IMG/VR virus record: IMGVR_UViG_3300020000_000045
Span: 1-34,776 of that record
Strand: one strand, 5' to 3'
Length of the DNA stretch: 34,776 bases
Source of the DNA: a virus
The notes below the pieces were generated by a model. The model saw only the letters and a program-made list of their open reading frames with translations. It was not told the origin of the DNA and did no database searches. Shown piece by piece: positions 12,118 to 30,630 of the stretch. Position numbers and translations under genes: made by a program. Every line of letters begins with the position of its first letter. The stretch's first letter is position 1.

Positions 12118-13863
12118 TTGACTCTTTCTAACACGGCAACGCCGAGGTATTACGGAGAGTTTCGAGCTGCTGTTCTTCGTGGCGACATTCCCGTGAATCG
12201 CGAAGTATCTGCCGAAATGAATCGTATAGATGAATTAATCTCTAATCCAAACATCTATCACGATGATAGCGCAGTCAATGGGTTTGTTCAATATTGTGAA
12301 ATGGAGTTGACGTTAACTGATGGGTCTGATTTACATCTCCTCGATTCCTTCAAACTCTGGGCCGAACAACTTTTTGGATGGTTCTACTTTATCGAACGAA
12401 GTGTTTATCAGCCTAGCGCAACTGGTGGCGAAGGTAAATACATCAAGAAGTGGGTCAAGAAACGACTCATTGTCAAGCAGTATCTCATCGTTGCCAGAGG
12501 CGCTGCCAAGTCAATGTACGCCGCCTGCATCCAAAGCTACTTCCTCAATGTAGACACTGAGACCACCCATCAGATCACTACCGCTCCAACCATGAAGCAG
12601 GCCGATGAGGTCATCTCCCCCATCCGGACCGCCATCACCAGAGCCCGTGGCCCCCTGTTTAAGTTCCTTACTGAGGGGTCTCTTCAGAATACTACCGGTG
12701 CTAGAGTAAACCGGGTAAAGTTAGCCTCCACCAAGAAAGGTGTTGAGAACTTTCTTACTGGCTCCTTGCTCGAAGTACGCCCAATGGCAATCAACAAGCT
12801 CCAAGGGCTCCGACCTAAAGTCTCGACAATCGATGAGTGGTTGTCTGGAGACATTAGAGAGGATGTTGTCGGAGCGATCGAGCAAGGGGCCAGTAAGCTA
12901 GAAGACTTTTTGATCGTAGCTATCAGCTCTGAAGGAACAGTTCGGAACGGTTCCGGCGACACCATCAAAATGGAACTTGCTAGCATTCTTAAAGGAGAGT
13001 ATCAAGCTCCACACATTTCGATTTGGCATTACAAGTTGGATGACATTGAGGAAGTTAATGACCCATCAACATGGCTAAAGGCAAATCCGAATCTAGGCCT
13101 AACCGTTACATACGAAGTGTACCAATTGGACGTCGAACGGGCCGAAAAAGCTCCCGCATCTCGCAACGACATCTTAGCAAAGCGATTTGGCATTCCGATG
13201 GAAGGCTACACGTACTTCTTTACATATGAAGAAACGCTTCCTCACGCCAGTCGAGAATTTTGGGGAATGCCGTGTGCTCTTGGCGCTGACTTGTCGCAAG
13301 GTGACGACTTTTGCGCCTTTACTTTGATGTTTCCGCTTCGAAATGCCTCATTTGGGGTCAAAACACGTTCATACATCACCACATTGACCCTTATGCGGCT
13401 CCCTGGGGCCATGAGAGCCAAGTATGAAGAGTTTATAGCGGAAGGAAGTTTGCACGTCTTAGAAGGCACTGTGCTCGACATGATGGAGGTGTATGATGAC
13501 CTCGATGGCTTCATTTTAACTAACGAATACGACGTTCGTTGCCTTGGTTTCGATCCTTATAACGCTAAGGAATTTGTCACCCGCTGGGAGGCCGAGAATG
13601 GACCATACGGACTTGAAAAAGTCATTCAGGGAGCTCGTACTGAATCTGTGCCTTTGGGCGAGCTTAAGATTCTAAGTGAAGAGCGAAAGCTCATATTTGA
13701 TCAAGACTTGATGTCCTTTGCAATGGGCAATGCGGTTACTCTCGAAGACACAAATGGTAATCGAAAGCTTCTTAAGAAGCGCAAAGATGAGAAAATTGAC
13801 AACGTTTCGGCCATGATGGATGCATACGTTGCTTGGAAAGCCAATAAGGAGGCCTTTGAATGA
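12118..13863 (+). CDS. terL: Terminase large subunit (581 aa)
   Basis: The motor that drives DNA into the prohead, with an ATPase and a nuclease part. TTG start with GGAGG about 9-13 bases upstream. A Walker A variant is at residues 126-132 (ARGAAKS) and a Walker B-like STIDEW with Asp239 and Glu240. The nuclease domain begins near GADLSQGDDF, with Asp391 as a likely metal ligand, and the C-terminal part has GFDPYNA and NVSAMMDAYVAW. Length and order fit the phage terminase large subunit family (Terminase_1 type). The end overlaps the next start by four bases (ATGA). Confidence 0.93.
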   Translation: MTLSNTATPRYYGEFRAAVLRGDIPVNREVSAEMNRIDELISNPNIYHDDSAVNGFVQYCEMELTLTDGSDLHLLDSFKLWAEQLFGWFYFIERSVYQPSATGGEGKYIKKWVKKRLIVKQYLIVARGAAKSMYAACIQSYFLNVDTETTHQITTAPTMKQADEVISPIRTAITRARGPLFKFLTEGSLQNTTGARVNRVKLASTKKGVENFLTGSLLEVRPMAINKLQGLRPKVSTIDEWLSGDIREDVVGAIEQGASKLEDFLIVAISSEGTVRNGSGDTIKMELASILKGEYQAPHISIWHYKLDDIEEVNDPSTWLKANPNLGLTVTYEVYQLDVERAEKAPASRNDILAKRFGIPMEGYTYFFTYEETLPHASREFWGMPCALGADLSQGDDFCAFTLMFPLRNASFGVKTRSYITTLTLMRLPGAMRAKYEEFIAEGSLHVLEGTVLDMMEVYDDLDGFILTNEYDVRCLGFDPYNAKEFVTRWEAENGPYGLEKVIQGARTESVPLGELKILSEERKLIFDQDLMSFAMGNAVTLEDTNGNRKLLKKRKDEKIDNVSAMMDAYVAWKANKEAFE

Positions 13864-14709: not shown

Positions 14710-14746
14710 TTGATTCATATTCAAATGAACGAAAGGAGGTGCCGGT

Positions 14747-16027
14747 TTGGGACTTCTAGATCAGGTTAAGAAATCTTGGAATGCCTTTCGTTCAAATGAT
14801 CAATCATATTCGAAAGATCTATATGAGCAAGGACCACCAAGTTATGGGACTGCTCCACCACAGAATCAACGTCTTCGATATTTCAATGAACGATCCATCA
14901 TCACGTCGATCTATACCAGAATCGCTATCGATGTAGCTGATATTCTGATTAGACATGCAAAAGTTGATGAGGATGGTAATTTTCTAGATAATTTAACCAG
15001 CGAATTCAACACATGTTTGACTCTTCAACCGAATCTTGATCAAGCTCCTCGAGCGTTTAGGCAAGACATTGTCATGACGCTCTTCGATGAGGGTATTGCA
15101 ACAATTGTTCCCGTTGATACCATTTCGGATCCACAATTCAATGCGCAATTCGACATTCTGTCAATGCGTGTGGGGAAGATTACACAATGGTACCCAAAGC
15201 ATGTACGGGTTAGTGTTTACAACGAAGCCAAGGGTGTAAGAGAGGAAATTACTCTTGAAAAGCAAATGGTTGCCATTGTAGAGAACCCGTTCTATGCGGT
15301 TATGAATGAACCGAACTCGACCCTCCAAAGATTGACTCGAAAGCTGCAACTTTTGGATACGGTTGATGAGGCAAGTAGTTCAGGTAAGTTGGATTTGATT
15401 ATTCAGCTTCCATATGTAATCAAATCTGAAGCTAGACAAAAGCAAGCAGAGCAACGTAGAGAACAAATTGAGTTCCAACTTAAGGGAAGTCAGTACGGCA
15501 TTGCCTATACTGACGGCACCGAAAAGATTACGCAGCTCAATCGCCCGGCAGAGAACAATCTGCTTAAGCAAATCGAATACCTAACGAACAAACTGTATGG
15601 TGAACTGGGCATTACAGAAGAAGTAATGAACGGTACGGCCAACGAAGCCGCGATGCTCCTGTACTATAACCGAACAATTGAACCCATCTTGGATGCGATT
15701 GTTGAAGCTATGCAAAGGGCATTCCTGGGGCTTATCGGAACCAAGAAGAAGCAAAAGGTTTTGTACTTCCGTGAGCCGTTCAAGTTTGTTCCGCTTGGAC
15801 AGCTTGCAGACATTGTTGACACTATGTCTCGTAACGAGATTCTTTCTCCGAACGAGATTAGGAGTGCCATGGGCTATCGTCCGTCAAAGGATCCGAAGTC
15901 TGATGAGCTCATCAACAGTAACATGCCACCACCGGCTCCTCCACCTCAGGTTCCGCCAAACCCTCAAGGAGAATCTGAAAACCAAGTTGAAACCGCAACC
16001 AATGATGAACTCGAGGCTATCAAATGA
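14747..16027 (+). CDS. Portal protein (426 aa)
   Basis: TTG start with a strong GAAAGGAGGT 7 bases upstream. The product forms the dodecameric ring through which DNA enters the head. It has the order of HK97/SPP1-type portals: an N-terminal part with RYFNERSIITSIYTRIAIDVA, a middle with WYPKHVRVSVYNE, a helical part with GKLDLIIQLPYVIKSEARQKQ and YGIAYTDGTEKITQLN, then LYGELGITEEVMNGTANEAA, and LSPNEIRSAMGYRPSKDPKS. The tail is Pro-rich (PPPAPPPQVPPNP). Length is typical for the family. It lies directly upstream of the protease-capsid fusion, as expected. Confidence 0.92.
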   Translation: MGLLDQVKKSWNAFRSNDQSYSKDLYEQGPPSYGTAPPQNQRLRYFNERSIITSIYTRIAIDVADILIRHAKVDEDGNFLDNLTSEFNTCLTLQPNLDQAPRAFRQDIVMTLFDEGIATIVPVDTISDPQFNAQFDILSMRVGKITQWYPKHVRVSVYNEAKGVREEITLEKQMVAIVENPFYAVMNEPNSTLQRLTRKLQLLDTVDEASSSGKLDLIIQLPYVIKSEARQKQAEQRREQIEFQLKGSQYGIAYTDGTEKITQLNRPAENNLLKQIEYLTNKLYGELGITEEVMNGTANEAAMLLYYNRTIEPILDAIVEAMQRAFLGLIGTKKKQKVLYFREPFKFVPLGQLADIVDTMSRNEILSPNEIRSAMGYRPSKDPKSDELINSNMPPPAPPPQVPPNPQGESENQVETATNDELEAIK

Positions 16028-18667: not shown

Positions 18668-19552
18668 ATGGCAATCCTTACTTGGGATCAGACCGGCCAA
18701 CGACTCTATGAAACTGGCGTTGATAGGGGCGTTCTGTACATTCCCACTGTAGGTATTTACGATGTTGGGTATGCTTGGAATGGTCTTACGGCCGTTACCG
18801 AGTCTCCCTCTGGCGCAGAAGCTACGGCTCTCTACGCCGACAACATCAAGTACCTCAACCTTTACTCGGCTGAGGAATTTGGTGCAACTATTGAAGCATA
18901 CACTTATCCCGATCAGTTCAACCAATTCGACGGACTTGCTTCCCCGCAGACCGGTGTTACTATCGGTCAGCAGGGACGTAAGGCTTTTGGTTTGTCTTAC
19001 AGGACGAAGCTGGGCAACGATACTTCTGGTAATGATTATGGGTATAAACTCCATATGATTTACGGATGTACCGCTGCTCCGTCAGAGAAGGCATACGCCA
19101 CAATCAATGATTCACCAGAGGCGATCACCTTTAGCTGGGAGATCACCACTGTTGCAGTGAGCATGGCAACCCTCAAGCCCACCGCTATTGTTACGGTTGA
19201 CTCGACCAAGGTTCAAGCAGGCAGCTTGTCTACTTTGGAAGGTGCCCTCTATGGTACGGTTGGTACCAGTCCAAGGCTCCCTCTCCCAGACGAGATCGTG
19301 ACAATGTTTGCCGGTTCTCAAACGTCGGTCACCACTACGGCGCCTACCTTTGTTCCGGCCACCGGCGTTATCACCATCCCGACCATCACCGGCGTTACCT
19401 ATCGCCGTGCCGATACCAATGCTGTTGTTACCGGCACCGTCACCATTGCTGGTACTGCTGGCGCATTCCTTACTATTCGGGCTGCTCCGACTACTGGTGC
19501 GTACGTGTTCTCGCCACAGTCGGACGATGACTGGACGTTTATCCGGACCTGA
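18668..19552 (+). CDS. Major tail tube protein (294 aa)
   Basis: ATG preceded by AAGGAGAAACA. Residues 1-215 are the tail-tube part: WDQTGQRLYETGVDRGVLYI, YAWNGLTAVTESPSG, YSAEEFGATIEAYTYPDQF, GLSYRTKLGNDTSG, GYKLHMIYGCTAAPSEK. A C-terminal domain (about 216-294: TGVITIPTITGVTYRR, SDDDWTFIRT) is shared with the capsid fusion and probably decorates the tube surface. The paralogue at 20130 lacks that domain and carries another one. Codons are rich in C and G at third positions, as in the capsid, which fits high expression. Confidence 0.9.
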   Translation: MAILTWDQTGQRLYETGVDRGVLYIPTVGIYDVGYAWNGLTAVTESPSGAEATALYADNIKYLNLYSAEEFGATIEAYTYPDQFNQFDGLASPQTGVTIGQQGRKAFGLSYRTKLGNDTSGNDYGYKLHMIYGCTAAPSEKAYATINDSPEAITFSWEITTVAVSMATLKPTAIVTVDSTKVQAGSLSTLEGALYGTVGTSPRLPLPDEIVTMFAGSQTSVTTTAPTFVPATGVITIPTITGVTYRRADTNAVVTGTVTIAGTAGAFLTIRAAPTTGAYVFSPQSDDDWTFIRT

Positions 19553-19564
19553 TGATTTGACTAG

Positions 19565-19679
19565 GAGACCAGAGAATGCTCGTAATTGTAGTTCCAGGAG
19601 CTGAGTTCTTCGACGAAACCACTAACGAATTTGTGGATGTTGAAGACGTTGTTTTGGAGCTAGAGCATTCTCTGGTCTC
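19565..19679 (+). promoter_or_regulatory. 17-base inverted repeat covering the chaperone start codon
   Basis: GAGACCAGAGAATGCTC at 19565-19581 is the exact reverse complement of GAGCATTCTCTGGTCTC at 19663-19679. The left arm contains part of the AGGAG ribosome binding site and the whole ATG (19576) of the tail assembly chaperone gene. The right arm lies within its codons 30-35. The mRNA can form a 17-base-pair stem with an 81-base loop that would hide the start. No T-run follows, so it is not a terminator. Translational control is inferred. Confidence 0.7.
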
Positions 19680-20118
19680 ACTGTCAAAATGGGAGTCAAA
19701 GTTCGAAAAGCCTTTTCTTGGAAAAGAGAAAAAATCCCCGGAGGAGATTGCCGGATACGTTAAGGCTATGTTAATTACTCCGGACATTGGTCTGGAAGTT
19801 TTGAATCGACTTAGTGTTGAAAATTTGACTGAAATTAATGCATACATCGAATCTAAACAGTCGGCTACAACATTTGGACAGATGCCAGATCGTTCAGGTT
19901 CTGGCGAAGTGATTACATCTGAATTAATTTATTATTGGATGGTAGCTTTTACCATTCCATTTGAGTGCCAGTATTGGCACCTAAATCGACTCTTCTCTCT
20001 GATTCGAATCTGTAACATTAAGAATTCGAAACCGAAGAAGATGGGTCGACATGAGATCGCTGCAAGAAACAGAGAACTAAACGCCCAAAGAAGAGCTCAG
20101 CTTTCTACTACTGGGTGA
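19576..20118 (+). CDS. Tail assembly chaperone, single-frame long form (180 aa)
   Basis: Lies between the two tail-tube genes and before the tape measure, the usual place for the chaperones that hold the tape measure during tube assembly. The N-terminal half (VVPGAEFFDETTNEFVDVE, LSKWESKFEKPFLGKEKKSP, YVKAMLITPDIG) resembles the short chaperone form. The C-terminal half (SELIYYWMVAFTIPFECQYW, LNRLFSLIRICNIK, KMGRHEIAARNRELNAQRRA) resembles the gp15/gpGT extension. In most siphoviruses the extension is reached by a ribosomal frameshift; here both parts are in one frame and no frameshift is needed. The start codon sits in one arm of a perfect 17-base inverted repeat. Confidence 0.75.
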   Translation: MLVIVVPGAEFFDETTNEFVDVEDVVLELEHSLVSLSKWESKFEKPFLGKEKKSPEEIAGYVKAMLITPDIGLEVLNRLSVENLTEINAYIESKQSATTFGQMPDRSGSGEVITSELIYYWMVAFTIPFECQYWHLNRLFSLIRICNIKNSKPKKMGRHEIAARNRELNAQRRAQLSTTG

Positions 20119-20129
20119 AAGGAGATTAA

Positions 20130-20948
20130 ATGGCTGCTATTGAATGGGACGTAGTTGGAGAACGAACATTCGAACAAGGTCTTGATCGTGGTGTGTTGTT
20201 ATTTCCAGATGGAGGCGGTGTTGCTTGGAATGGTCTTGCTTCCATTGATGAGAATGCCGAAATAGGCGTAGAGCCATTTTATTTCGATGGGGTTAAATTT
20301 ACAGAGTTTGTTACGGTTGGTAATTTTTCAGCTATTTTGAAAGCTTACACGTATCCGCAAGAGTTTCTTAAGTATGAAGGATTAATCGAAGATACCACTG
20401 GGTTTTTTATTGGTAATCAAGAGCCAAATCTTTTTCATCTAACATACAGAACCATGGCTGGTGACGATGCTGATTCAAGACCAGGTTATAAAATTCACAT
20501 TCTGTATAATTTAACGGCTATCCCATCCACAAAATCACATACGTCAATTGCTAATGGATCAGCCCCAATCTTATTTGAATGGAATCTTTCGGCAATTCCT
20601 GAGACTTTGGATGGATACACCCCAACCGCGCATATTGTTCTTGATAGTCGAGAGATGGACCCGTGGTTATTCGAAGATATTGAAGCTATTTTGTATGGCG
20701 ACGAAACACATGAGCCAACTGCTCCAGCTCTTAGTGGTTTCGCTACATTTATTCGTAACTGGGAACGGCTTATTGTTATTGATAATGGTAATGGGACCTG
20801 GACTGCGAGTGCGGTTGACGACGCCAGTATTGTGATGCTTGACAGCACTACATTTCAAATCATTGAAGATAATGCTGTGTATTTGAACGCAGACACTTAT
20901 ACACTCACTAGTTCTGACAAGAATGAGGAAGATATATGGCTACCGTAA
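20130..20948 (+). CDS. Second tail tube-like protein (272 aa)
   Basis: Paralogue of the major tail tube protein at 18668: WDVVGERTFEQGLDRGVLLF, VAWNGLASIDENAE, FVTVGNFSAILKAYTYPQEF, LTYRTMAGDDADSRPGYKIH and AIPSTKSHTSI align with matching parts there. The C-terminal about 70 residues differ (RLIVIDNGNGTWTASAVDD, STTFQIIEDNAVYLNADTYT), a domain I recall in several actinobacterial phage tail proteins. Codons are more A/T rich than in the first copy, so it may be a minor tube component, for example at one end of the tail. ATG preceded by GAAAGGAG. Confidence 0.8.
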   Translation: MAAIEWDVVGERTFEQGLDRGVLLFPDGGGVAWNGLASIDENAEIGVEPFYFDGVKFTEFVTVGNFSAILKAYTYPQEFLKYEGLIEDTTGFFIGNQEPNLFHLTYRTMAGDDADSRPGYKIHILYNLTAIPSTKSHTSIANGSAPILFEWNLSAIPETLDGYTPTAHIVLDSREMDPWLFEDIEAILYGDETHEPTAPALSGFATFIRNWERLIVIDNGNGTWTASAVDDASIVMLDSTTFQIIEDNAVYLNADTYTLTSSDKNEEDIWLP

Positions 20949-21854: not shown

Positions 21855-22229
21855 ATGATAAAAGTATCTGTTACCGGCTCGTATAAGAAGACTCAGGAAT
21901 GGCTTAATAAGCTGCACGAAGGCGATCATTTTGATGTACTCGGTGCGCATGGATCAGCCGGCGTTAGCGCATTGGCTTCTGCAACACCGAAAGATACTGG
22001 TAAAACAGCATCGTCTTGGACTTATGTCGTATTTAACAAGGGGAACAAAGCGGGTGTAGCTTGGTACAACTCCAACGTGGTTAATGGCGTTCCTATCGCT
22101 ATTATTCTTGACAACGGCCATGGTACAGGCACTGGTGGATGGGTTCCTGGACACAACTATATTAGTCCCGCAATTAAACCTATTATGGATAAAACCATTG
22201 ACGATGTCTGGAAGAAGGTGATCGAATGA
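21855..22229 (+). CDS. HK97 gp10-like tail completion protein (124 aa)
   Basis: ATG preceded by GAAGGTGG. The protein reads VSVTGSYKKTQEWLNKL, GVSALASATPKDTGKTASSW, AWYNSNVVNGVPIAIILDNG, GWVPGHNYISPAIKPIMD. The ATPKDTG(K/E)TASSW and DNGHGTxxGGxVxGxxYIxPAI pattern is that of gp10-like head-tail or tail completion proteins. In most siphoviruses this gene lies before the tail tube; here it follows both tube genes and the collar gene and overlaps the tape measure start by ATGA. Confidence 0.75.
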   Translation: MIKVSVTGSYKKTQEWLNKLHEGDHFDVLGAHGSAGVSALASATPKDTGKTASSWTYVVFNKGNKAGVAWYNSNVVNGVPIAIILDNGHGTGTGGWVPGHNYISPAIKPIMDKTIDDVWKKVIE

Positions 22230-25200
22230 GCGGTGATGATCGCGTTGTTGGACTTGAATTCGACAATTCTAAATTCGAATCAAAGCTCGCTCAGACTATA
22301 GCAAGTTTGGACAAACTTCAAACCACACTCGATAAGCAAAACGGTAAAAAAGCTCTGGAGGATCTTTCCACAGCAGGTTCCAAATTTGATGTTAGCAATA
22401 TTACTGCAGGCATCGAGGGTGTTAGCGCTAAATTCTTGGCACTGTCTACTATTGGTATTACAGCGCTAGCCAATATTGCTAGTAAAGCTGTCAGCGTAGG
22501 CATTGATTTAGCAAAGTCGTTGTCGCTTGATAACGTTCTGGCTGGTTTCCACGAATACGAAACCAACATGAACTCGATTCAAACGATCATGACGAACACG
22601 AGAAAAGATGGTTCAACTCTTCAAGATGTGAACAAAGCTCTCGATGAGCTGAACCATTACTCTGATCAGACCATCTATAATTTCTCTGAGATGGCTCGAA
22701 ACATTGGTACCTTTACGGCTGCTGGTGTTGATCTGAATACTTCAACTCAGTCGATTAAGGGTATTGCTAACCTTGCGGCTGCTTCGGGTTCAGATGCGAA
22801 CCAGGCTGCTACCGCAATGTATCAGCTTTCTCAGGCAATGGCATCCGGCACAGTCAAGCTTATGGACTGGAACTCAGTCGTTAATGCTGGCATGGGTGGC
22901 GAGATGTTTCAGGAAGCCCTCTTCAATGCGGGCAAACTGAAGGGAACACTTGATGGTGTAGGCGCTAATACAACTTTCGATAAATGGAAAGCTTCAGGTA
23001 ATTCGTTCCGAGATTCACTTGAATCCGGATGGATCACGGCAGACGTTCTTACTACAACGTTGCAGGGTTTCACCGGAGATCTTAGTGAAGCTCAGCTTAC
23101 AGCGATGGGTTATACCCAACAACAGGCCCAAGAAGTCATGGCAATGGGTCAGTCTGCTAAGGATGCTGCTACTCAGGTTAAAACCTTTACGCAGCTTGTG
23201 GGTACAGTCAAAGAGTCTATTGGATCTGGTTGGTCACAAACATTTAAGCTTATTATTGGCGACTTCGATCAGGCAAGAGGTTTGTTTACTGGCATCAACT
23301 CCGTCATTGGAGACATGATTCAAAAAGGTGCTGATAACCGCAACAACCTGCTCCAAGGTTGGGCTGATCTTGGTGGTCGCGGCGCTCTCATTGACGGCGT
23401 TGTTAGAATCTTCTTTGCTTTGGGCGCTGCTATTAAGCCCGTTCAACAGGCGTTCCATAACATATTCCCGCCAATGACGGCGGAAAAGCTTTATGATCTT
23501 ACTGTTAAGTTTAGAGATTTCACAGCAGCCCTTATGCCCAGCACGGCAACGATTCTTCGTTTGCAGCGCGTATTCGAGGGCGTATTTGCAGCGCTGGAAA
23601 TTGGCTGGACCGTTATTAAGGGTGTTGCAGAAGTATTCAAGACTTTGTTTATGGAACTTAAGTCGGGTACCGATGGAAAGGTACTCAAATTCTTCGCTGA
23701 GATTGGCGACAAGGTTGTAGCTCTTAATAAAGTGTTGGTCGAGGGTGGAGGAATCAAGGATTTCTTTACAAAGATTACTGATGCGATTAAAGATCCTATT
23801 CCTGCGCTTAAAGATTTCTTGGGGTACCTCTCTAATATAGGTGATGGCGCTGTTGGCGATGCCATCAATCTTATTGTTCAAGCCTTCCAACAAGCCTTGC
23901 CTGTGCTTGGAATGGCTCGTGATTTATTTGGAGTGCTCAAAGACAAGATCGCAGAATTCGTTTCAAGTATTGATATTGGTGGCGTCTTCGACGATCTTAC
24001 GGATAGTATCAAAGAGTTCCTTTCAAGCATTAATATTGGTGGCGGTGGCCTTGATATTAGTGATAAATTCGGAGATACACCAGATGTCGTAAAAGACATT
24101 GGCGCAAGATTCGACCATCTGAAAGATATTGTCAGTTCTGTTGCCGATTTCTTTCAATCCGTAGGCAACGTTATTGGCGATCTCTGGGGTAAGATTTCAC
24201 CAGTTCTCGATGAGGTCTTTGATCATATTCATGATTGGTTCTCTACGCTTGGCGAAAAGCTTGGCGACGCCATTGGTACTGGAGATTTCAACAAGGTTGT
24301 CGATGTCGTAAACGTCGGTCTTCTTGGTGGTATTCTCGTTATTCTTAGGAAGTTCTTCAAGAACGGGCTCAACATCGATTTCGGTGGCGGCTTGATGGAG
24401 AAGATCTCCGGCACATTTGGTCAGCTAACTGACACGTTGAAGGCGATGCAAACCAAGATCAAGGCCGACGCTTTGATCAAGATTGCTATTGCTCTTGGTG
24501 TTCTCGTTGCTTCATTGGTTGTTCTGTCTCTTATCGATTCTGCCGCTCTGACCAAGGCACTTGTTGCAATGGCAGTAGGTTTCGCTCAACTTGCGGCCAT
24601 GATGAAATTGATGGAGAAAGTTACTGGCAGCGCAAGTAAATTTGTAGGTCTAGCTGCCGGATTGCTGCTTTTGGCCGGAGCAATGCTAATTCTAGCCATA
24701 GCAATGAAGATATTTGCCACAATGTCTTGGGAAGACATTGCCCAGGGTCTAACCGCAGTAACGGTACTTCTTGGAACTTTGGTTCTCGTAGCAAAGAGGC
24801 TGGATGCCTCGGACATGATCAAAGCTGGCGCCGGCATATTGATTCTTGCTGGAGGCATGGTTGTTCTTGGGCTAGCTCTAAGAATGTTTGCCGGCATGTC
24901 TTTGCCAGAGATGGGTCAAGGACTTATTGGTGTAGGCGCTGGGCTTGTCATTATTGCCGAGTCTATGAAGAGAATGCCTACAATTTCGCCTAAGGATGGG
25001 GCGGCTATTATTCTAATTGCTGCTGGGTTGCTTGTTCTAAGCTTCGCAGTTAAACAATTTGCCGAACTGTCTTGGGGAGAGATGGCCAAGGGCTTTGCTA
25101 GTGTCGCCGCTGGTCTTTTGATCATCGCCGGTGCTATGCATCTTATGCCCAAGGATATGCTCCTCACTGCCGCTGGTCTATTGGTCGTCGGCGTGGCTCT

Positions 25201-27022
25201 TCTTGTTATCGCCAAGGCTATTGAAACTTTCGCCGGTATGTCAATGGGTGAAGTTGGGAAGGGGCTGGGCATTATAGCCGCGGCGCTTGTTCTTCTTGCC
25301 ATTGCTGCACACGCTATGTCTGGGGCGATTGTTGGTGCTATCGCTATTGGTATTATGGCGGTTTCTCTTGCGCTTCTAACTGGCGTGCTTACAGCGCTGT
25401 CTAAGTTGAGTTTGACTGAGCTTGCTCTTGCAATTGGCGCTCTAGCCGCTGTGTTTGTTGTGCTTGGTTTGGCTGCCTTGGTTCTGGAACCTGTTATCCC
25501 AGCGCTTATGCTTCTTGGCGTCGCGCTTGCTCTTATCGGTCTTGGCTTTGTGTTGTTCGGTGCTGGTGTGGCTATGGCTGCATCAGGTTTCCTCGCTTTG
25601 GCTAAGGCTGGGGACGCTGGCATCAAGGTATTTGTCAAGCTTCTTGACGTATTAATTTCTAAGATTCCAGAATTCCTTGGAGCGATAGCAGGCGGCTTGC
25701 TTGATGCGCTACAAATCTTTGTAGACATGCTACCTCAGCTAATGGAAATGGTTGTGACGGTTGTCACGTCATTGCTTGACACGGTTAAGACGCTTATTCC
25801 AGAAATTGTGTCCGTGGTTGTCGTTCTTATTGAAACTCTAATCGGTGCTCTCGTAGAGCTATATCCTGTGGTTATCGAAGCAGGGTTTTCTTTGCTGATG
25901 GCGCTTTTGAATGGAATCAAAGAGCACGTCCCCGAGATTGTTATTACAGTTGCCGAAATTATTGTCGGATTCCTAAACGCCCTCAGTGAGTCTCTCCAGA
26001 TGATCATTGCCGCTGGTGCGGATTTGATTATCAAGTTCCTCGAAGGTATTGGTAGTAATGCACTGAAGGTTATCGAGGCGGGCTTCAAAGTCCTCATCGA
26101 TTTCCTTGAGGGTCTTGCCAATAGCATTCGAGAAAATCGTAGTAAACTGTGGGCTGCAGGTATCGACATCATTGCTGCTATATTTGGTGGTATCACTGAG
26201 AAAGTTGCAGAGGTTTGGACTTTCTTCTCTGGTCTTGTCGGCACTGTTCTTGAGAAAATCGGTACGGTCACAAGTTCTCTTACGCAAAAGGGTAAAGATT
26301 TCATAATTGGTCTTTTGCACGGACTACAAGAAGTTTGGGAAACCGTCAAGACTTTTGTCGAAGGGCTTGCCGACCGTATTAAGAGTTATATCTCTAGTCC
26401 ACTAACAATCTTGTTGGAAGCTGGCAAGGATGTTATTCGTGGTTTGTGGAATGGTATTGTGGCCATGAAGGACTGGATCACAAATAAGCTTGGCGAAGTT
26501 GGTGGCTGGATTAAGAGTGGCATTGGTTCTGTCATGAAGATGTTCTCTCCGTCGCGAGTAATGGCGCAGTATGGCGTTTATATTGGCCAAGGCCTGATTA
26601 TTGGTATCGATTCTATGGAAAAGCCAATTACGAAGTCGTCCGAAAACATGGGTAATTCTGTGATTAAGACGATGGAATCGACTATGAATAAGATTCCTAA
26701 TATTCTGGCTGGAATGGAAGAATTCAATCCGACTATCACACCAGTTCTTGACTTGACTGGAGTTAAGAAGGAAGCTCAAAATCTATCTGGTTTGCTTAAT
26801 TCTGAAGATCTAACTGCTAAATCTAATTTGCAGCAAGCTCGTATTATTTCTGTTGACACAAATGAGCAGCAGAAAGCCACGACAGATCAATCATATGGAT
26901 ACCAGAAAGAAATCAAATTTGAGCAGACTATCAATGCTCCAACGGAGTTGTCTACCGCTGATATTTATCGTCAAACCCGTAACCTCATTGCGCTGGCAAA
27001 GGAAGAGTTGGCAATCGTATGA
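22226..27022 (+). CDS. Tape measure protein (1598 aa)
   Basis: Sets tail length and is ejected ahead of the DNA. The N-terminal part is helical and charged (FDNSKFESKLAQTIASLDKL) followed by the conserved tape-measure region (YETNMNSIQTIMTNTRKDGS, LDELNHYSDQTIYNFSEMAR, AAASGSDANQAATAMYQLSQ, GSGWSQTFKLIIGDFD). Residues about 750-1140 are very hydrophobic and contain four repeats of 57-58 residues. The C-terminal part has FSPSRVMAQYGVYIGQGLI, the usual end motif. At roughly 1.5 angstrom per residue, an established rule, the tail would be about 240 nm. No lysozyme or peptidase motif was seen. Confidence 0.92.
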   Translation: MSGDDRVVGLEFDNSKFESKLAQTIASLDKLQTTLDKQNGKKALEDLSTAGSKFDVSNITAGIEGVSAKFLALSTIGITALANIASKAVSVGIDLAKSLSLDNVLAGFHEYETNMNSIQTIMTNTRKDGSTLQDVNKALDELNHYSDQTIYNFSEMARNIGTFTAAGVDLNTSTQSIKGIANLAAASGSDANQAATAMYQLSQAMASGTVKLMDWNSVVNAGMGGEMFQEALFNAGKLKGTLDGVGANTTFDKWKASGNSFRDSLESGWITADVLTTTLQGFTGDLSEAQLTAMGYTQQQAQEVMAMGQSAKDAATQVKTFTQLVGTVKESIGSGWSQTFKLIIGDFDQARGLFTGINSVIGDMIQKGADNRNNLLQGWADLGGRGALIDGVVRIFFALGAAIKPVQQAFHNIFPPMTAEKLYDLTVKFRDFTAALMPSTATILRLQRVFEGVFAALEIGWTVIKGVAEVFKTLFMELKSGTDGKVLKFFAEIGDKVVALNKVLVEGGGIKDFFTKITDAIKDPIPALKDFLGYLSNIGDGAVGDAINLIVQAFQQALPVLGMARDLFGVLKDKIAEFVSSIDIGGVFDDLTDSIKEFLSSINIGGGGLDISDKFGDTPDVVKDIGARFDHLKDIVSSVADFFQSVGNVIGDLWGKISPVLDEVFDHIHDWFSTLGEKLGDAIGTGDFNKVVDVVNVGLLGGILVILRKFFKNGLNIDFGGGLMEKISGTFGQLTDTLKAMQTKIKADALIKIAIALGVLVASLVVLSLIDSAALTKALVAMAVGFAQLAAMMKLMEKVTGSASKFVGLAAGLLLLAGAMLILAIAMKIFATMSWEDIAQGLTAVTVLLGTLVLVAKRLDASDMIKAGAGILILAGGMVVLGLALRMFAGMSLPEMGQGLIGVGAGLVIIAESMKRMPTISPKDGAAIILIAAGLLVLSFAVKQFAELSWGEMAKGFASVAAGLLIIAGAMHLMPKDMLLTAAGLLVVGVALLVIAKAIETFAGMSMGEVGKGLGIIAAALVLLAIAAHAMSGAIVGAIAIGIMAVSLALLTGVLTALSKLSLTELALAIGALAAVFVVLGLAALVLEPVIPALMLLGVALALIGLGFVLFGAGVAMAASGFLALAKAGDAGIKVFVKLLDVLISKIPEFLGAIAGGLLDALQIFVDMLPQLMEMVVTVVTSLLDTVKTLIPEIVSVVVVLIETLIGALVELYPVVIEAGFSLLMALLNGIKEHVPEIVITVAEIIVGFLNALSESLQMIIAAGADLIIKFLEGIGSNALKVIEAGFKVLIDFLEGLANSIRENRSKLWAAGIDIIAAIFGGITEKVAEVWTFFSGLVGTVLEKIGTVTSSLTQKGKDFIIGLLHGLQEVWETVKTFVEGLADRIKSYISSPLTILLEAGKDVIRGLWNGIVAMKDWITNKLGEVGGWIKSGIGSVMKMFSPSRVMAQYGVYIGQGLIIGIDSMEKPITKSSENMGNSVIKTMESTMNKIPNILAGMEEFNPTITPVLDLTGVKKEAQNLSGLLNSEDLTAKSNLQQARIISVDTNEQQKATTDQSYGYQKEIKFEQTINAPTELSTADIYRQTRNLIALAKEELAIV
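24650..25320 (+). repeat. Four 57-58-residue hydrophobic repeats in the tape measure
   Basis: The unit A-x-x-F-A-x-M-S-x-x-(E/D)-x-x-x-G recurs with its M/L-S pair at 24722, 24896, 25067 and 25238, giving periods of 174, 171 and 171 bases. Each unit carries two hydrophobic helices (GLLLLAGAMLILAIAMKIFA, GILILAGGMVVLGLALRMFA). They may insert into the host membrane during DNA entry; this is known for tape measures in general and inferred here. Confidence 0.8.
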
Positions 27023-30264: not shown

Positions 30265-30555
30265 ATGTTTGGAAAAGATCCAAAGATCGAAGACGTAAAG
30301 CTAAAAGAGATCAAGAATCGACTTTTGGATGATATGTTGAAAGACAAGCCAGGAACTCCAGAGTTTATCAAACTACTAGTCCAATTGGAAAGAGTTAGTG
30401 CGTTGCAAAAGTCGGAAGACAAGCCACGCCCTGACATGAATACAATTTGCATAGTAGGAGGTAATCTTTTGGGGATTCTGATTATCGTCGCATATGAACA
30501 AAAGCACGTTTTTGCCTCGACAGCCAAAAGCTTCGTTCTGAAGACGAAAACCTGA
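30265..30555 (+). CDS. Small membrane protein (96 aa)
   Basis: The ATG at 30265 was chosen over the TTG three bases earlier; GAAAGGAAG lies 5 bases from it. The N-terminal two thirds are charged and helical (FGKDPKIEDVKLKEIKNRLL, TPEFIKLLVQLERVSAL). One membrane segment follows (about residues 60-77, TICIVGGNLLGILIIVAYE), then a short basic end. The DMNTICIVGGNLLGILIIVAYEQ type of segment occurs in small proteins of many Firmicutes phages, of unknown role. It has its own promoter (30216) and a strong terminator (30581). Confidence 0.75.
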   Translation: MFGKDPKIEDVKLKEIKNRLLDDMLKDKPGTPEFIKLLVQLERVSALQKSEDKPRPDMNTICIVGGNLLGILIIVAYEQKHVFASTAKSFVLKTKT

Positions 30556-30580: not shown

Positions 30581-30630
30581 AACCTATAGGGTTTGTACGA
30601 AATACTAAGTACAAGCCCTATAGGTTTTTT
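30581..30630 (+). terminator. Intrinsic terminator
   Basis: AACCTATAGGG(T)TTGTAC pairs with GTACAA(G)CCCTATAGGTT around a 10-base loop, followed by TTTTTT. It is the strongest hairpin-plus-T-run in the window. The T-run touches the TCGCA box of the next promoter. Confidence 0.9.

Follow-up and report, generated by a model that had tools for sequence, protein, structure and literature searches.

A covarying mRNA helix predicted to mask the start of a probable tail assembly chaperone gene in tailed phages

The analysis of a viral DNA stretch of 34,776 nucleotides (IMG/VR record IMGVR_UViG_3300020000_000045, positions 1 to 34,776; hereafter the window), together with the homologues of one of its genes, shows that the start of a gene for a 180-aa protein, probably a tail assembly chaperone, lies in a cis-acting mRNA helix that is predicted to mask its ribosome site and has been kept by compensatory change. 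The evidence comes from the strength of the fold in the window, from covariation of the two arms across viral, cultured-phage and prophage relatives, and from an unusual fixation of codon choice in the segment that pairs with the start region.

The helix at the start site and the covariation of its arms

The sequence-only reading had pointed to a perfect 17-base inverted repeat with an 81-base loop, whose 5' arm would cover part of the ribosome site and the ATG. The repeat is exact in the window (GAGACCAGAGAATGCTC at 19565-19581 and GAGCATTCTCTGGTCTC at 19663-19679), and its 17-bp core sits inside a longer 26-nt repeat (19556-19581 and 19663-19688) with 88% complementarity. The perfect 5' arm spans not only part of the Shine-Dalgarno (AGGAG, 19563-19567) and the ATG, as described, but also the spacer and codon 2; when the outer pairs are included, the whole Shine-Dalgarno falls inside the helix. 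The partner of this start region is provided by codons 30-35 (E-H-S-L-V-S) of the same gene. The parts of the helix are as follows:

19556-19564, plus strand: 5' outer extension of the helix, holding the start of the Shine-Dalgarno (from the 26-nt repeat and the MFE fold)
19565-19581 (-11 to +5), plus strand: 5' arm of the core helix (exact complement of 19663-19679, co-varying with the 3' arm in homologues)
19663-19679, plus strand: 3' arm of the core helix, in codons 30-35 (from complementarity, covariation and synonymous constraint)
19680-19688, plus strand: 3' outer extension of the helix (from the 26-nt repeat, the MFE fold and a covarying pair, -12/+18, on a shifted diagonal)

The claim that such a repeat is very unlikely to arise by chance is borne out: among inverted repeats with arms at most 150 nt apart, the 17-nt core is the longest perfect one in the 34.8-kb window, and the longest perfect inverted repeat in 100 first-order Markov sequences reaches 13 nt. 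The RNA from 19550 to 19700 (151 nt), whose folding had been suggested as a check, has a predicted folding energy of -67.8 kcal/mol (z = -8.4), and none of 200 shuffles is equally stable. Likewise, the computed cost of opening the ribosome site (-15 to +12) is 34.4 kcal/mol, as against 3.6-20.3 kcal/mol at 28 other ORF starts of the window, making it by far the most occluded of the 29 that were examined, in agreement with the view that the gene start is hidden.

Three further repeats were observed elsewhere in the window. A weaker, 16-nt inverted repeat (14721-14736 and 14784-14799, 88% complementary) surrounds the ribosome site at the start of the portal gene, a TTG at 14747, with a similar one in the closest relative and none in more distant ones. 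A 20-nt inverted repeat of 95% complementarity with a 104-nt loop (12754-12773 and 12878-12897) lies within a 581-aa ORF (12118-13863). Just 3' of an ORF ending at 30555, a strong 18-nt hairpin with a 10-nt loop (AACCTATAGGGTTTGTAC and GTACAAGCCCTATAGGTT, 30581-30626) may be a terminator or another element. The notion that a masked start is a general feature of this genome was rejected, as occlusion of comparable strength is seen only at the start of the chaperone candidate and the portal repeat recurs in the closest relative alone.

Relatives were collected from IMG/VR viral contigs, from cultured phages (of Streptomyces, Arthrobacter, Gordonia, Microbacterium, Curtobacterium, Bifidobacterium and Lactococcus) and from bacterial genomes, the last being mostly Firmicutes prophages. 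The tree was built from 265 non-redundant homologues, thinned at 95% identity and with the arms excluded, whereas covariation was computed over 166 distinct viral and cultured sequences, giving 1,887 column pairs. Some loci were found by a pattern, TGTCAAAATGGGAG, which is located 3' of the core arms; hence, this selection is unable to create covariation within them. Searches initiated from two distant members (Lactococcus 1706 and a faecal phage) returned no match beyond themselves.

Across these relatives the two arms change together, as is evident from matched variants such as GACCAGAGA/TCTCTGGTC, GATCAAAGA/TCTTTGATC, GAGTAGAGA/TCTCTACTC and GACTAAAGA/TCTTTAGTC. The start codon itself participates: ATG stands opposite a CAT His codon and GTG mostly opposite CAC. 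In the 166 sequences, the top eight covarying column pairs all belong to the helix, seven of them in register and the other on the diagonal displaced by the bulge, and Watson-Crick or wobble pairing amounts to 85% in the helix register as against 36-50% in others. Parsimony on the 265-sequence tree, the counts from which are approximate, places compensatory double changes on 97 branches in the helix register, including 22 at the first base of the start codon, as against 2-22 in 18 slid registers. The sequence-only reading had itself named loss of the pairing without compensation as the observation that would speak against it; the pairing is instead retained through just such double changes. 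When 33 diverse sequences are aligned, a 22-bp helix with one bulge emerges, in which 92.8% of the cells are paired, compared with 35-52% upon sliding; 0 of 500 shuffles reach its covariation score, and RNAalifold recovers the same helix unaided. The outer pairs are kept in 67-97%, with the exception of the -16/-14 positions, and one base is bulged in the 3' outer extension of relatives. Among viral copies, the best duplex includes the start codon in 177 of 180. Further, arms pair better with their own partners than with swapped ones in all three samples, the mean pairing energies being -34.3 versus -28.4 kcal/mol (viral), -35.6 versus -27.0 (cultured) and -23.9 versus -19.1 (prophage).

This register-specific covariation rejects chance or protein constraint alone as the source of the complementarity. 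Moreover, G-U cells (10.6%) outnumber A-C cells (2.5%) in the viral set, identifying the sense RNA as the selected strand. This points to selection on the sense RNA rather than on DNA or an antisense RNA, and a DNA cruciform or antisense transcript is correspondingly disfavoured.

The masked gene and its tail-gene neighborhood

The gene whose start is enclosed by the helix is flanked by a pair of paralogous major tail protein genes, both belonging to phrog_2645:

18668-19552, plus strand: upstream major tail protein gene (phrog_2645, E 7e-108)
19576-20118, plus strand: helix-masked gene coding for 180 aa, phrog_4338 (unknown function), probable tail assembly chaperone
20130-20948, plus strand: downstream second major tail protein gene (phrog_2645, E 8e-70)

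All three precede the tape measure gene (22226-27022). The stop codon of the upstream tail gene (19550-19552) is 23 nt before the ATG, a spacing that is mostly 13-33 nt in relatives, and a major-tail-like gene is found downstream in 170 of the 186 viral relatives tested. This pairing of tail genes around the probable chaperone gene is usual in viral relatives and rare in Firmicutes prophages.

The identification of the gene as a tail assembly chaperone by the sequence-only reading is plausible. In its favor, the gene occupies the position of a tail assembly chaperone, between the major tail protein and tape measure genes, with a second major tail gene intervening in most viral relatives. An AlphaFold model of the protein (pLDDT 87), with four N-terminal strands followed by helices, the C-terminal one being arginine-rich, matches viral models in BFVD: two unnamed homologues, a 'tail assembly protein' (weakly, at E 1e-3 and TM 0.44) and, weaker still, a 'tape measure chaperone frameshift protein' (E 0.04). 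On the other hand, phrog_4338 comes with no function, no Pfam or NCBIfam model gives a convincing match to the protein, its AlphaFold model has no relative in the PDB, and a search for an RNA-binding domain or a solved relative detected neither. Position and weak fold similarity thus make tail assembly chaperone the probable identity. In cluster DJ Gordonia phages, a 2026 paper reports as the sole chaperone candidate a single gene between two major tail genes, lacking a slippery sequence (PMC12859696); members of the phrog_4338-type family fill that same position in Gordonia phages of this kind.

We likewise found no conserved slippery site with an overlapping second frame in the family, with frames and overlaps varying between relatives; in the window, an in-frame TAA (20127-20129) sits directly before the next ATG. 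As candidate frameshift sites, TCAAAATGG and the gene's 3' end were both rejected, since the frame is not conserved. As a separate observation, Lys codons 149, 154 and 155 (in 20020-20046, codons 149-157) are AAG-biased across relatives (87-94%), which possibly avoids a slippery run of A. The lack of a conserved second frame is consistent with the idea that the helix may substitute for frameshifting.

The strength of the helix differs across the family. Viral copies have a median uninterrupted helix of 17 bp, extending up to 29 bp, whereas the Firmicutes prophages have a weaker one with a median of 9 bp, reaching at least 12 bp in 13 of 69; the helix is therefore not indispensable to the gene family. 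Its energy averages -35.7 kcal/mol where a second tail gene lies downstream (n=170) and -23.0 kcal/mol where it does not (n=16), and the 60 of 69 prophage copies that are missing the second tail gene average -23.4 kcal/mol. This link is confounded by ancestry, which may by itself explain it; the pattern also fits the insulation of a low-dose gene between two high-dose genes.

Codon constraint, the proposed brake and competing explanations

Synonymous codon usage varies unusually little at codon 2 and at codons 29-41 and, except for a few scattered sites, is near background elsewhere in the gene. The constrained region extends beyond the core 3' arm into a second feature:

19684-19695, plus strand: nucleotide-invariant element TCAAAATGGGAG, codons 37-40 (from codon-choice constraint across relatives)

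With the pattern-selected loci excluded from the counts, TCA stands at codon 37 in all 95 viral sequences, in 25/26 cultured and in 61/69 genome sequences (backgrounds 0.15, 0.07 and 0.14, respectively), and codon 38 is AAA in 93/94, 25/25 and 69/69. The first two bases of the TCA can pair with GA at -16/-15, while the invariant AAAAUGGGAG is directly 3' of the helix, outside the paired region. No complementary partner for TCAAAATGGGAG was found when the UTR, the loop, the 150 nt that follow and E. coli rRNA were examined. An antisense promoter at TTTTGACA was considered and dropped, given that its CTG varies to CTT and that a -10 box is absent after it. Since TCAAAATGGGAG is nearly nucleotide-invariant even beside weak helices, it may be an element independent of the helix; its invariance exceeds what simple masking explains and hints at an extra factor.

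Taking these observations together, we favor, with moderate confidence, a mechanism in which the cis-acting helix masks the start of the probable chaperone gene as a translational brake, keeping the protein scarce by way of initiation on nascent mRNA followed by a train of ribosomes. Such a brake would suit a low-dose protein whose gene lies between two tail-tube genes, both presumably sharing one mRNA with it. At equilibrium the ribosome site would be closed, and the opening cost of about 34 kcal/mol means that ribosome entry in that state would hardly be possible, whence we infer translation from nascent mRNA. Initiation would then be confined to the brief period in which the polymerase has yet to transcribe the 3' arm, some 100 nt further on. 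After the first initiation, closely spaced ribosomes would prevent codons 30-35 from pairing for as long as the train is unbroken; a gap in it would allow the helix to close, with the result that a small number of protein molecules is made per mRNA. With the usual ribosome footprint, a ribosome terminating 23 nt upstream extends no further than the helix's outer edge; those completing translation of the upstream tail gene would thus be expected to leave the core helix unopened.

The main rival to this brake is a regulator bound at AAAAUGGGAG, which we judge unlikely yet worth weighing: the helix would be the off state of a switch, with a trans-acting factor (the chaperone itself, a tail protein or a host factor) binding AAAAUGGGAG and stabilizing or opening the helix for feedback or timing control. 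A switch of this kind would account for a 12-nt element that adjoins the helix, lacks a pairing partner and is near-invariant at synonymous sites even where this calls for rare codons, such as the cultured-phage TCA; the arginine-rich helix at the end of the protein would also suit it. Against this, the 180-aa protein has yielded neither an RNA-binding domain nor a solved relative, and persistence of the element where the helix is weak suggests that the two may be independent.

RNase III processing appears improbable. A double strand of the length seen here is enough for RNase III, and the host enzyme could cut it, removing the start region and reducing how much chaperone is made compared with the upstream tail protein. 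The viral helices, with uninterrupted stretches of the lengths given above, would be suitable substrates, but the short, weak prophage helices would be poor ones, and a cleavage site has no need for the register that is fixed on the start codon throughout the family, with its paired changes at the first base; it is this fixed register that makes processing the less likely reading. Finally, we regard the absence of any regulatory role as very improbable: although E30-H31-S32-L33 and the Shine-Dalgarno region are each conserved on their own account, such that conserved protein sequence, a ribosome-site consensus, a DNA cruciform or an antisense RNA might be invoked, the register-specific covariation, the swapped-arm controls and the synonymous constraint exclude independent conservation, and the G-U excess indicates sense RNA.

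Relation to known systems and biological meaning

The proposed brake resembles several known systems without matching any one of them. In the coat-replicase coupling of RNA phages, the replicase start pairs over a long distance with coat codons and is opened by upstream translation. There too, a translated coding sequence pairs with a start site and ribosome passage governs access; however, the partner lies in the upstream gene rather than downstream of the start in the same gene. In the MS2 maturation protein gene, ribosomes can enter only on freshly synthesized RNA, the ribosome site being closed once the RNA is mature (PMC6071253; kinetic view in PMC6733600). This system similarly closes the ribosome site of a low-dose structural protein, with the nascent-only step being the part that would carry over to the tailed-phage gene by inference, but its partner lies in the 5' leader of an RNA genome, as opposed to the gene's own codons 30-35 in a dsDNA phage mRNA. 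In type I toxin mRNAs (hok, aapA/IsoA), a distant downstream segment masks the Shine-Dalgarno and renders the full-length mRNA inert (PMC6733600). Long-distance masking and conserved mRNA folding are shared with these, whereas their partner is at the mRNA 3' end and is freed by processing, with an antisense RNA as antitoxin; the tailed-phage partner is within the first 35 codons and is not known to be processed or to have an antisense counterpart. Lastly, the lambda G/GT genes and their actinophage relatives use programmed frameshifting in tail assembly chaperone genes (PMC10885494). Frameshifting controls the dosage of chaperone forms from the same genomic position and the helix would serve the same end, but the helix-masked gene has no conserved slippery site or second frame, and its control point would be initiation rather than elongation.

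No Rfam family matched above its gathering score, the remaining matches being at chance level, and a literature search, mostly outside subscription journals, found no description of the helix. Thus, while masking of ribosome sites is already known, conserved self-masking with covariation of the start codon is new as far as could be checked. More tentatively, we raise the possibility of a hitherto undescribed dosage device of tailed dsDNA phages, in which the helix between the start and codons 30-35, together with AAAAUGGGAG, replaces programmed frameshifting, holds chaperone levels down and limits the freedom of the EHSL motif and of the start codon to vary.

The region is an unusually clear instance of a single stretch with overlapping functions (ribosome site, start codon, protein code and RNA structure), the start codon itself covarying with a codon 30 positions on. 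For an unnamed gene family that occurs in actinophages and Firmicutes prophages, the helix furnishes an annotation handle, and it offers a natural design by which the amount of protein made from each mRNA could be capped. It also offers a testable answer to how chaperone dose may be controlled in phages without a frameshifted chaperone gene, such as the cluster DJ Gordonia phages (PMC12859696).
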